Assembly: GCA_945863425.1 (NCBI GenBank)
Contig: CAMBBW010000005.1
Span: 1-38,976 of the forward strand
Source: Lishizhenia tianjinensis
GTDB taxonomy: Bacteria; Bacteroidota; Bacteroidia; Flavobacteriales_D; Crocinitomicaceae
DNA: 38,976 bases
Direction: 5' to 3'
The notes below the pieces were generated by a model. The model was given only the letters and a program-made list of their open reading frames with translations. It had not been told where the DNA came from and made no database searches. Shown here piece after piece: positions 18,680 to 22,768 of the stretch (positions are counted from its first letter, which is position 1; each line of letters starts with the position of its first letter). The translations under genes and the position numbers were made by a program.

Positions 18680-19782
18680 TTTTTTATAGCGATCGATTCA
18701 CACAAGTCAACAATTTCATGAGTAGCATTTGCTTTACCGAATTTTTTAATTTCGGCACTTAATTTTTCTTGTTCGGTGGTAGAAGAAATTAATTCGATGG
18801 TTGTTTGTATTAAGGTATTTCTTGCTTCACCATCTCGTACTAATATAGCTGCTCGTGCATCAACAAGGGCCATTGCATTTTTTGTTTGATGATCTTCGGC
18901 TACATTGGGTGAAGGAACCAAGATTGTTGGCTTAGCTACAATACATAATTCTGAAACAGAAATTGCTCCCGCTCTTGAAATTACGACGTCAGCCGCAGCA
19001 TAAGCTAAATCCATGCGCTCAATAAATTGGTACAAATGAATGGATGGTAAATTTCTTCTATTTACAGAGATGGATAAATCTGCGTGATACAACCTTCCAC
19101 ATTGCCAGATTACCTGCACGCCGGCTTGGTCGAGTTTTTCCAATCCATGTTTAATGGATTTATTGAGTGTTTTCGCTCCCAATGAACCTCCAATAACCAA
19201 CAGAGTGGGTTTATTTTTGTCTAATTTAAAAAATTCAATGCCTAGTTCTTTTTTATTGGTGACTTCTACCATATCAATTCGAACAGGGTTTCCTGTTAAA
19301 TGTATTTTTTCTGTAGGAAAAAACCGATCCATGTTAGGATATGCGGTGCAGATTGCAACTGCTTTTTTGGCTAGTAATTTATTTGTTTTTCCGGGGAAAG
19401 AATTTTGCTCTTGAATGAGGGTTGGTACACCTAGTAGATTGGCCATTTTCAGAGTTGGGCCACTAGCGTATCCTCCAACACCAATAACTAATTGTGGACG
19501 AAAATCTTTAATGATTCTGCGCGCTTTTAATAAGCTTTGAATGATTTTGAAAGGAAGTTTGAAATTTGCAAGAGAAAATTTCCGTTGGAATCCTTGGATG
19601 GGAAGACCTTTAATTTTATAACCTGCTTTTGGAACCCGCTCCATTTCCATTTTACCCTCGGCTCCAACAAATAGGACATGACACATTGGAAAGCGCTTTT
19701 TAATTTCATCTGCAATGGCAATCGCTGGGAAAATATGACCGCCAGTTCCTCCTCCGGAAATAATTACTCGTTCTAATTTCAT
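18670..19782 (-). CDS. murG: UDP-GlcNAc:lipid I N-acetylglucosaminyltransferase
   Basis: GT28-family enzyme on the inner face of the cytoplasmic membrane that converts lipid I to lipid II. The 370 residues carry the N-terminal glycine loop 'SGGGTGGHIFPA' (9-20), the second G-loop 'VIGVGGYASGP', and the C-domain 'VIGGSLGAKTLN'. The UDP-GlcNAc-binding 'SRAGAISVSEL' and 'AEDHQTKNA' follow. Length is normal (E. coli 355). It overlaps ftsW by 4 bp and murC by 10 bp. Confidence 0.97.
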   Translation of the reverse strand: MKLERVIISGGGTGGHIFPAIAIADEIKKRFPMCHVLFVGAEGKMEMERVPKAGYKIKGLPIQGFQRKFSLANFKLPFKIIQSLLKARRIIKDFRPQLVIGVGGYASGPTLKMANLLGVPTLIQEQNSFPGKTNKLLAKKAVAICTAYPNMDRFFPTEKIHLTGNPVRIDMVEVTNKKELGIEFFKLDKNKPTLLVIGGSLGAKTLNKSIKHGLEKLDQAGVQVIWQCGRLYHADLSISVNRRNLPSIHLYQFIERMDLAYAAADVVISRAGAISVSELCIVAKPTILVPSPNVAEDHQTKNAMALVDARAAILVRDGEARNTLIQTTIELISSTTEQEKLSAEIKKFGKANATHEIVDLCESIAIKKWK

Positions 19783-20951
19783 AATGCGTCAAATGAATTA
19801 TCTGTTTTTGTTTTCGATTTTTTTTGTTGGTTGTAAGCAATGGATTGAACAATACCAATTGATACACAAGCCATGATGAGTGCAGACCCTCCCATCGCTA
19901 AAAGGGGCATATTTTGTCCTGTAACCGGAAAAACCCCTGTGCATACTAGCATGTTTACACTTACTTGAGTCAATAGTAAGGTCCCAATTCCTAAGCAAAC
20001 GTATGTTTCAAATAGTTTTTCCGCATTTAAACCGACGCGTATAATTCGATAGAGTAAAATAAGGTAGAGTAAAACTAAAAGGACTGCGGAAAATGAACCA
20101 AATTCCTCCACAAAACTGGAATAGTAAAAATCAGCATAGGCTTCAGGGATGTATTCTTTCAATTTTCCGTCTCCAACTCCTTGTCCGAAAACAGAACCAT
20201 TATTAATAGCCAATCGAGCATTCAGTGCCTGAGCATTCGACACAATATCTTTGTCATCGTCCAATTTATTAAAAATTCGATTCTCCCAGGTTTGATAACG
20301 AGGTAAAATGTTTAATGCGGGAGCTGCTTTGTGTATCCCCACTGCCATAATTCCTACTAAGATTATTCCAGTATTGATAAGCAAAAGTTTTTTTATTGGC
20401 ATTTTACCTATGAAAAGTATGATGATGCAGATCATGAAAAGTAATGCTGCGGTTGAAAAGTTGTCTTTCACGATCAATACACATATTAATGCAGGCGGCC
20501 AGAAAACGTGAAAAACGCCATTGCGCCAGTCGTTTAAATCATCTTGATATTTTATAAGTAGGCGCGATAGATAAACAATAATTGCCACCTTGGCAAAATC
20601 AGACGATTGAAAAGTTAGTCCAATAAATGGAATCCGAATCCAGCGCCCAGCATCATTGATTTTAGATCCAAAAAGCAAGGTGTATACGAGTAAAATAACG
20701 GCTAAATAAAAACCTAGTTTGGCTAATTGTGAGAAGTACTTTGAATCACGTAAATGAATCCAATACATGGCAAAAAAGCCAATTAAGACGTAAATGAAAT
20801 GTTTGTATAAATATTGAATAGGTGAACCTCCTTCCATTTTCACCAGTATAGGCACAAAACTATACACGGTTACCAAGGAAAAAGAAAGAAGAATGAGTGA
20901 TATAACCCATATAACAGGATCACCTTTCAGATATTTCAGATACGACTTCAT
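19779..20951 (-). CDS. ftsW: Septal peptidoglycan polymerase FtsW (SEDS family)
   Basis: Polytopic SEDS glycosyltransferase that polymerises lipid II at the septum together with FtsI. The 390 residues have about 10 transmembrane segments. Family features include 'GRWIRIPFIGLTFQSSDFAK' (about 111-130), 'ALNARLAINNGSVFGQGVGDG', 'IPEAYADFYYSSFVEEFG' and 'TGVFPVTGQNMPLLAMGGSA'. RodA is a close relative, but the place inside the dcw cluster next to murG supports FtsW. It overlaps the upstream unknown ORF by 4 bp and murG by 4 bp, so it is translationally coupled on both sides. Confidence 0.95.
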   Translation of the reverse strand: MKSYLKYLKGDPVIWVISLILLSFSLVTVYSFVPILVKMEGGSPIQYLYKHFIYVLIGFFAMYWIHLRDSKYFSQLAKLGFYLAVILLVYTLLFGSKINDAGRWIRIPFIGLTFQSSDFAKVAIIVYLSRLLIKYQDDLNDWRNGVFHVFWPPALICVLIVKDNFSTAALLFMICIIILFIGKMPIKKLLLINTGIILVGIMAVGIHKAAPALNILPRYQTWENRIFNKLDDDKDIVSNAQALNARLAINNGSVFGQGVGDGKLKEYIPEAYADFYYSSFVEEFGSFSAVLLVLLYLILLYRIIRVGLNAEKLFETYVCLGIGTLLLTQVSVNMLVCTGVFPVTGQNMPLLAMGGSALIMACVSIGIVQSIAYNQQKKSKTKTDNSFDAL

Positions 20952-21412
20952 TTTACTTGAGCAAGTGACAAATAATCAATAAATCTATTCTTTTGATATT
21001 CCCAATCAGAATTAGCATAGGTAAAGAGCAAAATAGATGGTTTAATCTTAATTTGCTGAATAACATTAAACGCTTCGGAAACAGAATTTACTTTAGAGCG
21101 GTTATTTAAAAAGCGCTCATCCTCATCCTCATTCGTATTTATTTCAACCGCGTAATGAATTTTAGCCATCAGACCGGGATTTGAAAGTAGTACGGGTTCT
21201 TTTTCAGCAAGTGAAGAAAGCCAGATAAGCGGAAAGGGAAAAGATTCCATGGTAGCGGCAAGCACTGCTGGTTTGGGGTTTATCCATGAAAATACATCCA
21301 AGCCCCATAATTTTCCATGCGATTGCATCGAAGAATCGGTAGCTTTTAATAAACCTTCTTTTCTCGCTTTGATTATAGAGTCCTCAATTTGAGCTATTTC
21401 CTTTTCACTCAT
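20948..21412 (-). CDS. Unknown 154-residue protein in the dcw cluster, resembling a MurD C-terminal domain
   Basis: Not a standard dcw gene. It begins 12 nt after the murD stop and overlaps ftsW by 4 bp, so it is surely cotranscribed and probably coupled. It has an N-terminal charged helix (about 1-25), no signal peptide and no membrane segment. By eye, residues ~40-150 run collinear with the last ~125 residues of the neighbouring MurD: 'WIN' with 'FIN', 'MESFPFPLIWL' (55-65) with 'LESMDKPTVWI' (340-350), 'AKIHYAVEINTNED' (83-96) with 'DKVKAIICLGTDNQ', and 'SVSEAF...ILLFTYANSD' (110-135) with 'SAGEAV...VLLSPACASFD'. The P-loop, central domain and the MurD 'DSKATN' residues are absent, so it should not be a ligase. 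It may be a shrunken duplicate with a regulatory or scaffolding role; this needs profile comparison. Confidence 0.75.
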   Translation of the reverse strand: MSEKEIAQIEDSIIKARKEGLLKATDSSMQSHGKLWGLDVFSWINPKPAVLAATMESFPFPLIWLSSLAEKEPVLLSNPGLMAKIHYAVEINTNEDEDERFLNNRSKVNSVSEAFNVIQQIKIKPSILLFTYANSDWEYQKNRFIDYLSLAQVK

Positions 21413-21424
21413 CAGAATAATTAT

Positions 21425-22768
21425 TTATAGCGAACGAACTGCGTTTTTAAATTGATTTCCACGATCTTCGTAGTTTTCAAATAAATCGAAACTAGCACAA
21501 GCTGGCGATAACAATACAGTTTCTTCCTTACTTGCTAATCGATATCCAAAAGCTACTGCCTCACCTGCTGATTTTGCCTCAACTATTTTTTCAACACTTC
21601 CTTGGAATGTTTCAATAATTTTTTGGTTATCTGTCCCCAAGCAAATGATTGCCTTCACTTTGTCCTTAACAAGTGCCAATAATTCAGAATAATCATTGCC
21701 TTTATCAACGCCTCCAACAATCCAAACGGTTGGTTTATCCATGCTTTCTAAGGCAAACCACGCTGAGTTAATGTTTGTTGCTTTTGAATCATTAATGAAC
21801 TCAATGCCGTTCACTTTGGCAACAAATTCTAAACGATGTTCGACATTCGTAAAGTCTTGTAGACTTTCTCGCACTACATCCTTACGGATTTCGAGTATTC
21901 TTGCTGCTATTCCGGCCGCAAGAGCGTTCTGGGTATTGTGCTTACCCTTAAGTGCTAATTCATGAATTGACATGTTAAATTGTTTGTTTATGTTGATTAT
22001 TAGTTGTTCGTTTGATGCAAATGCTCCTTGTTTTATCTCCTGTTTTATGCTAAATGGAGCGCATCGCATAGTAGGTTTTCGTTTTTCAATTTCTGTTGCA
22101 ATGATGGGGTCATCTGCGTTATAGATAAACCAATCTTCCTTGCGTTGATTTTGGATAACTCGAAACTTTGAATTGACATAATTTTGCATTTCATAATTAT
22201 ATCTATCCAAATGGTCAGGCGTAATGTTTGTCAAAATTGAAATGTCTGCTCGAAAATCAATCATGTCATCAAGCTGAAAAGAGCTAATTTCTAATACGTA
22301 TAAATCGAAATCATTTTCAGCTAATTGTTTAGCAAAGCTATGCCCAATATTGCCTGCTAAACCTACATTGAGTCCAGCTTTTCTCAAAATATGATGGAGC
22401 CATAATGTAGTCGTTGTTTTACCATTACTTCCTGTAATGCAAATTGTTTTTGCTTTGCAGTAATAGCCCCCAAATTCTATTTCTGAAATAATAGAAATGC
22501 CTTTTGCTTTAATGGCAAGGATTAATGGCGCTGAATCAGGAATCCCGGGTGATTTCACTACTAAATCAGCAGTAAGTATTTTCTCCTCTGAATGTTTTTC
22601 TTGTTCCCAGCCGGCTTCAAGTTCATTCAATTTCTGCTGATGCTCTTGTTTGATTTTTCCGGCATCGGACACCCAAACTTTCCATCCCATTTTTTGGGCA
22701 AGAATGGCAGTGCCGATTCCACTTTCACCAGCGCCTAAAACAACGATATTTCCAGGTTGGATATTCAT
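21425..22768 (-). CDS. murD: UDP-N-acetylmuramoyl-L-alanine-D-glutamate ligase
   Basis: ATP-dependent ligase that adds D-Glu to UDP-MurNAc-L-Ala in the cytoplasm. The 447 residues show the N-terminal Rossmann 'IVVLGAGESGIGTAIL' (8-23), P-loop 'ITGSNGKTTTTLWL' (111-124), 'NITPDHLDRY' (181-190) and 'LKGKHNTQNALAA' (273-285). The C-terminal domain has 'INDSKATN' (325-332), 'VGGVDKG' and 'LLSPACASFDLFENYEDRG' (419-437). Length is normal (E. coli 438). It overlaps mraY by 1 bp. The next gene downstream is the MurD-tail-like ORF. Confidence 0.97.
   Translation of the reverse strand: MNIQPGNIVVLGAGESGIGTAILAQKMGWKVWVSDAGKIKQEHQQKLNELEAGWEQEKHSEEKILTADLVVKSPGIPDSAPLILAIKAKGISIISEIEFGGYYCKAKTICITGSNGKTTTTLWLHHILRKAGLNVGLAGNIGHSFAKQLAENDFDLYVLEISSFQLDDMIDFRADISILTNITPDHLDRYNYEMQNYVNSKFRVIQNQRKEDWFIYNADDPIIATEIEKRKPTMRCAPFSIKQEIKQGAFASNEQLIININKQFNMSIHELALKGKHNTQNALAAGIAARILEIRKDVVRESLQDFTNVEHRLEFVAKVNGIEFINDSKATNINSAWFALESMDKPTVWIVGGVDKGNDYSELLALVKDKVKAIICLGTDNQKIIETFQGSVEKIVEAKSAGEAVAFGYRLASKEETVLLSPACASFDLFENYEDRGNQFKNAVRSL

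Follow-up and report, generated by a model that had tools for sequence, protein, structure and literature searches.

A stand-alone MurD C-domain paralogue between murD and ftsW in the dcw cluster of Bacteroidia

The open reading frame (ORF) at 20948..21412 on the minus strand of the window, the whole stretch of 38,976 nucleotides from Lishizhenia tianjinensis that was analysed, almost certainly encodes a non-catalytic MurD paralogue that consists of the C-terminal domain alone. With equal confidence, the gene can be traced to one duplication of the murD 3' end, at the base of the class or inside it; it has kept its place between murD and ftsW and has diverged strongly in the window's family, Crocinitomicaceae. 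The most likely role that we infer for the protein is that of an adaptor or regulator without catalytic activity, acting in the zone of MurD, MurG and FtsW. The best explanation as a whole, in which the paralogue origin is joined to a cytoplasmic adaptor or regulator tied to FtsW, could equally well prove right or wrong. What is new here is the finding of a known domain in a free-standing, conserved setting. The dcw cluster is among the best-studied bacterial gene clusters; a further member, kept in many lineages and built from one of the cluster's own enzymes, would represent a new player tying cytoplasmic precursor synthesis to the septal polymerase.

The open reading frame and its relationship to MurD

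The ORF encodes 154 amino acids (the coordinates include the stop codon) with an ATG start and a TGA stop. A gap of 12 nt (21413..21424, minus strand) separates it from murD (21425..22768, minus strand; 447 aa), the complete ligase whose C-domain it resembles. Its downstream neighbour is ftsW (19779..20951, minus strand; 390 aa), the product of which we take to be the SEDS polymerase, and the stop codon of the ORF shares a 4-bp ATGA overlap with the ftsW start (20948..20951, minus strand), where translational coupling of the two is possible. The position, length and spacing given for the ORF in the first-pass annotation were confirmed from the ORF list. The gene order likewise agrees with its description of an otherwise canonical dcw cluster, the order being presumably mraZ, mraW, ftsL, PBP, murE, mraY, murD, the ORF, ftsW, murG, murC, ftsQ, ftsA and ftsZ, with genes named by recognition of their sequences.

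Direct comparison of the ORF or its branch with known sequences gave no match. At E 10 the ORF matched neither Pfam nor NCBIfam, PF02875 (cut-off 28.4 bits) and the full-length MurD equivalog TIGR01087 (cut-off 211.95 bits) included, and no PDB sequence matched it. Four members of the diverged branch that were scanned matched no Pfam or NCBIfam model, chance matches apart. Against the MurD of the window, BLASTP returned E 0.49 over 17 residues, and therefore the likeness seen by eye in the first-pass annotation is, taken alone, at chance level; three of its short matches (WIN/FIN, MESFPFPLIWL/LESMDKPTVWI and ILLFT/VLLSP) nevertheless agree with the profile alignment described below.

The likeness between the ORF and MurD becomes significant because of the relatives, through the profile scores above controls and the predicted structure. 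With hhalign, a profile of the window's branch (63 rows) matched 50 clear paralogues with a score of 77.8 (probability 97.8, E 1.1e-12) and 55 MurD C-domains with a score of 37.8 (probability 81.8, E 1.1e-5), placing the branch nearer to the clear paralogues than to MurD. The best of 100 column-permuted controls reached 19.1 and 22.3 against the two sets respectively, and the reversed-profile controls 14.4 and 14.3.

The alignment extends N-terminally to about residue 9, where IIKARK of the ORF lies beside LEIRK of MurD. Residues 3-25 (21338..21406, minus strand), which contain the ARK motif, are predicted by AlphaFold2 to form a helix with a local pLDDT of 67-75, and hhalign aligns this helix with the last helix preceding the MurD C-domain; R17 is kept in 58 of the 63 rows. 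The best-conserved block of the window's branch, HGKLWGLDVFSWINP (residues 32-46; 21275..21319, minus strand), occupies the place of the MurD HRLE...NDSKAT segment. Five of its positions (G33, D39, F41, W43 and P46) are invariant in 63/63 rows, 62 of which were fetched by a scan selecting for part of the motif of this block. Towards the C-terminus, the strand ILLFT (residues 127-131; 21020..21034, minus strand) was aligned with VLLSP of MurD by hhalign.

The AlphaFold2 model of the ORF has a pLDDT of 86.0 and a pTM of 0.77. Its best match among solved structures in VIA-align is a MurD C-domain, 4buc (Z 12.5, rmsd 2.8, 123 aligned residues), followed by three further MurD entries, 7sy9, 7sir and 3lk7 (Z 11.8-11.9), and by an Mpl domain at rank five (Z 11.2). 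The remaining matches listed are, by title, Mur ligases, MurT, FolC, pseudomurein ligases or cyanophycin synthetases, apart from 2am1, whose title is uninformative and which we take to be MurF. At 154 residues the protein lacks the UDP-binding domain and the central ATPase domain with its GKT loop, and the model shows only the C-domain fold. Profile-profile and structural comparisons of the kind put forward in the first-pass annotation point to the MurD C-domain, and the missing ATP loop, central domain and DSKATN residues that it had described were also borne out, the last by the lack of the motif in all 80 members of the branch. Profile scores with controls, predicted structure and intermediates support the ORF being a Mur ligase C-terminal domain by fold and descent.

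C-domain-only relatives, origin and distribution

The intermediates were found in the murD-ftsW gap of other families of the order, where proteins of 162-176 aa are plainly MurD C-domains; one of them, at locus L047, carries HRLE, INDSKATD and GDVVLFSPACSSFD. Ten gap proteins were scanned. Five, all from other families, matched TIGR01087 with E values from 1.5e-30 to 5.5e-42 (107-144 bits), the match being confined to positions 292-440 of the model, and four of these five were the only ones to pass the PF02875 cut-off. Two gap proteins of family f5 were marginal (E 4.8e-6 and 0.088), and the three from the window's genus gave no Mur-ligase match. The paralogues have in common with the MurD C-domain (TIGR01087 about 290-440, PF02875) the fold, the order of strands and helices, and the ancestry. 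Being C-domain-only and lying directly upstream of ftsW, the ORF belongs with the C-domain-only paralogues of this gap.

ORFs were read at 40 loci of the order and in 20 regions from 19 genomes of the class, and both sets showed the order murD, C-domain paralogue, ftsW. Eighteen of these 19 genomes carry all three in this order; the exception, G215, has its murD on a different contig and has the paralogue before ftsW. The survey of the gap suggested in the first-pass annotation thus uncovered C-domain-only proteins in the same place across many families of the class. Two tandem copies occur in families f2, f4, f5 and f8, and at locus L111 the second copy stops 11 nt short of ftsW. The second copies of f2, f4 and f8 (L108, L110, L112, L113, L118, L120 and L122) were observed to open with a basic segment like YTIHKSKKS, which MurD does not have.

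A scan of named genomes gave 79 loci, including those of Taishania pollutisoli (L179), Fluviicola chungangensis (L209) and many titled Crocinitomicaceae. The paralogue is followed by ftsW in 79/79 of them, two having 217 and 352 nt before the chosen start, and is preceded by murD in 76/79, the exceptions being L179, L191 and L225, of which L225 is 87% identical to L179. The gap to ftsW has a median of 0 nt, with 32 of the 79 loci overlapping and 25 of these by exactly 4 bp, and the gap to murD has a median of 8.5 nt, with 17 of 76 overlapping. The paralogue was also found in 55 of 60 other fetched loci, some from the same genomes as the named set. In these sets ftsW follows within 245 nt in all 54 testable loci (in L125 it lies beyond the region read), and murD directly precedes in 49 of 55, the six exceptions representing three lineages (g22, g43 and G215). 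We counted L179, L191 and L225 together with g22 as one lineage, Taishania. The murD neighbourhood is thus broken in three lineages and the ftsW neighbourhood in none, a result to be expected by chance 1 in 8 times. This is suggestive of a closer tie to ftsW but not strong, and the overlap between the two genes may by itself keep the ftsW side from being disrupted.

Several minor features of these loci were recorded. In genus g43, other ORFs are present between murD and the paralogue (L125 915-2515, encoding 260 and 271 aa; 2.1 kb in L117). Some record titles disagree with the locus found: L219 (CP034120.1) is a complete chromosome titled Glaciecola amylolytica and is nearly like Fluviicola, and L174, L185 and others are Crocinitomicaceae-type loci in MAGs titled Actinomyces viscosus, Candidatus Kuenenia, Chitinophaga pinensis or Chryseobacterium gleum.

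In a quick tree of 100 rows, a branch with SH-aLRT 81 set all 50 clear paralogues apart. In a more careful tree of 74 rows, made without the longest branches and some near-copies, the 31 paralogues left were likewise set apart, with a UFBoot of 96 and an SH-aLRT of 93, and the second copies of f2, f4 and f8 formed a group of their own (100/100). No clear paralogue grouped with its own MurD in these trees, from both of which the window's branch was kept out because of its divergence. A single duplication, at the base of the class or somewhere inside it, followed by losses in many families and by a further tandem duplication, would be consistent with these data. The first-pass annotation was thus right in seeing a duplicate of the MurD C-domain, as the intermediates in the same gap, the profile scores with controls, the predicted structure and the tree of clear paralogues agree. 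Its proposal of a local tandem duplicate reduced in this genome did not survive: the window's family, Crocinitomicaceae, holds a strongly diverged branch of an old C-domain-only family with one origin on the tree and members in many families of the class.

The ORF itself was found in 13 of 40 relatives searched (25 of the 40 belong to the window's genus, its own genome included); all 13 are of that genus and the ORF is always between murD and ftsW. Other species of the genus have a gap of mostly 6-9 nt, two having 29 and 54 nt. On the MurD tree, at least three switches between presence and absence fall inside the genus, and we read them as losses; a fourth switch rests on a contig end. Locus L022, where the gene seemed absent, is such an end, and its genome carries the gene on a different contig (L068). 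With these changes and with no second match in the 51 genomes of family f9, the gene is dispensable.

By profile search and hand count, two or more matches were obtained in 65 of the 150 genomes of the order, where the single-match genomes were mostly counted from the profile alone and strongly diverged copies may be missed. The families differ: 36/60 genomes of f1 and 14/16 of f3 have two or more matches (in the fifteenth of f3, G104, the sole match is the paralogue, L126), as have 15/15 genomes of f2, f4, f5, f8, f10 and f11 together and 0/59 of f6, f7, f9 and f13, four of the 59 lacking any match. In the class, 41 of 149 genomes have two or more matches, the gap having been read in 19 of the 41; this count is a lower bound because the profile misses the diverged type of the window, as it did in G000, G060 and G061. 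Outside the class, 68 genomes of the phylum gave no true extra copy that the profile could detect, a very diverged copy being able to escape it; two of the 68 had no match, and the one genome with two matches has a MurD split over contig ends.

A few further ORFs were noted during this survey. In family f6 (G029), a 65-aa ORF of unrecognised kind (L057 98-292) lies within a 226-nt murD-ftsW gap. A third, unlinked MurD C-domain-like gene was found in f16 (G223 and G181), f54 (G219) and f50 (G215), at L277 1480-2118, L278 1492-2031, L279 1393-1932 and L280 1462-2079; in f16 and f54 it adjoins an apparent aldehyde dehydrogenase gene and not ftsW. A suspected MurD fusion in G391 (open frame 1346) was rejected, being an ordinary MurD in a GC-rich genome.

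Ligand residues and selection

Residue numbers refer to E. coli MurD and were mapped through the alignment. DSKATN, K348 and S415 are what we take to be the ligand residues of the MurD C-domain. All the residues counted are present in 55/55 MurDs, except that the K348 equivalent is lysine in 54/55. Among the 50 clear paralogues, S410 and P411 are kept in all, N316 in 48, D317 in 47, T321 in 38, R302 in 37, S415 in 33 and K319 in 31, and the K348 equivalent is lysine in only three. The clear paralogues differ from MurD in the absence of the UDP-binding and ATPase domains and in the loss of K348 in 47/50.

The same motif patterns were applied to all three groups. A DSKAT-like motif is present in 55/55 MurDs by both the strict and the loose pattern, in 34/50 and 50/50 clear paralogues by the strict and loose patterns respectively, and in 0/80 members of the window's branch by either. 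The SP motif is present in all MurDs (55/55) and clear paralogues (50/50) and is absent from the whole of the window's branch (0/80). The reverse is seen for GKxxGxDxFxW, which is found in 80/80 members of the branch and in no clear paralogue (0/50) or MurD (0/55); the scan itself selected for a part of this motif, which biases the first count, though most relatives found without the scan also carry it. The window's branch differs from MurD in lacking the ligand motifs and in being too distant for direct detection. The second copy of family f5 has lost the DSKAT motif and kept SP. These counts thus show that the ligand-side motif, most of which the ligase fragment preserves elsewhere, is missing from the window's branch and from the f5 second copy, with the genes retained.

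The paralogue is under purifying selection, looser than that on MurD and FtsW. Between the window and its two closest relatives, dN/dS (NG86) is 0.187 and 0.151 for the paralogue, as compared with 0.085 and 0.067 for MurD and 0.044 and 0.021 for FtsW. Values of 0.024-0.195 were obtained in 13 of 15 close pairs, which were hand-chosen and some of which share a member; of the other two, L187-L190 gave 0.51 on a dS of only 0.033 and window-L168 had an unusable dS. Together with the 13 of 40 relatives that carry the ORF, these ratios (0.15-0.19 against the two closest) agree with the conservation and purifying selection expected of a real gene in the first-pass annotation.

Possible mode of action and alternative explanations

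As to the mode of action, we tentatively favour an adaptor or regulator in the cytoplasm, produced together with FtsW, a proposal that is somewhat more apt to fail than to hold. The protein would work by contact with other proteins, given that it can do without the ligand residues and that its best-conserved block is the one whose MurD counterpart presumably faces the central domain. The same face, which in MurD packs against that domain, would provide the docking surface. Synthesised in step with FtsW, the paralogue would keep MurD, MurG or MraY in the vicinity of the FtsW polymerase, or tune one of them. It is rather doubtful, as a wider reading, that a retired MurD C-domain has become a dedicated cytoplasmic FtsW partner that couples the soluble precursor ligases to the septal polymerase in many families of Bacteroidia, with a second dedicated copy in some. 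No partner was singled out by distance correlation over 58 non-redundant of 69 loci (partial r 0.29 for MurD, 0.20 for MraY, 0.19 for FtsW and 0.07 for MurG), and the number of FtsW columns that differ where the gene is missing, five, does not exceed the control (95th percentile 5). The presence of MreB gives no useful contrast because matches occur in 150/150 genomes of the order, four of them weak (G055, G109, G151 and G169).

An alternative with a real but minor share of the probability is that the protein is a regulatory subunit of MurD, the spare C-domain binding MurD and lowering or stabilising its activity. Its descent from MurD, its position adjoining murD at most loci (49/55 and 76/79) and the fact that its highest partial distance correlation is with MurD are all consistent with this, and a protein partner that inhibits MurD is on record in Acinetobacter, where MigC, a GTPase of COG0523, binds the enzyme and is mapped to its domain 2 (PMC12208494). 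MigC would be a precedent for one proposed mode by other means, being a GTPase and not a Mur-ligase domain. Against a MurD subunit stand the three lineages in which murD is elsewhere or cut off by ORFs while the paralogue stays with ftsW, and the lack of structural evidence of contact. We regard it as improbable that the domain instead acts as a sensor which, by still binding ATP/ADP or a UDP-MurNAc peptide, informs FtsW of the supply of precursors. Outside the window's branch the motif is for the most part retained (D317, R302, K319, T321 and S415, as counted above), and many clear paralogues, judging from these residues, may have a ligand role there through D317, K319 and T321. However, K348 is gone in nearly all of them, much of the MurD ligand site sits in domains that the paralogue lacks, and genes persist both in the f5 second copy, where the DSKAT motif is lost though SP is not, and in the window's branch, where the absence of the ligand motifs in 80/80 makes sensing in the manner of MurD unlikely.

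Two further explanations deny the protein a role of this kind. The tight spacing, the ATGA overlaps and the repeated absence of the gene would suit a leftover that survives by coupling ftsW translation to murD, yet the protein is under purifying selection in 13/15 pairs, residues are invariant over the branch, the gene stays open where murD is elsewhere and unlinked third copies exist, and we consider a function at the level of the gene only to be very improbable. Hardly any credence can be given to an unrelated small protein resembling the MurD C-domain by chance or through a common Rossmann-like fold. There is no direct sequence match, and Foldseek returned nothing for the model at E 0.001 or below: its best matches, MurC and an Mpl domain, have E 2.1e-3, 4buc has a TMq of 0.59, and DHFR entries appear among the Mur ligases from E 0.019 (1drf). 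The intermediates in the same gap and the profile match well above controls have in our view already refuted this reading, and VIA-align places MurD first.

The adaptor or regulator that we favour has partial parallels among known systems. MurT-GatD shows that a relative of the Mur ligases can form part of a wall complex, MurT working together with GatD. MurT shares the Mur-ligase C-domain fold (VIA-align 9sq9, 6fqb and 7q8e); it keeps the central ATPase domain, unlike the paralogue, and the neighbours of the ORF are dcw genes, not gatD. A MurG oligomer has been proposed as a scaffold for Mur ligases (PMC6420597), which is the same proposed role of holding cytoplasmic Mur enzymes at the membrane, with the difference that MurG is an enzyme and the candidate adaptor a ligase fragment. 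By analogy, MigC and MurG would supply precedents only. Among the full-text literature matches listed, none by title or start of abstract concerned a C-domain-only MurD paralogue, preprints and most subscription papers being outside this scope, so that absence from the literature is unproven. Automated annotation would, our results suggest, call the clear members MurD fragments and the diverged members hypothetical proteins. The proposal is directly testable, as members are present in named strains (Taishania pollutisoli and Fluviicola chungangensis) and related species with and without the gene exist. In a study of dcw gene order, a tandem pair of copies was handled as a single gene that had been duplicated (PMC8871954).
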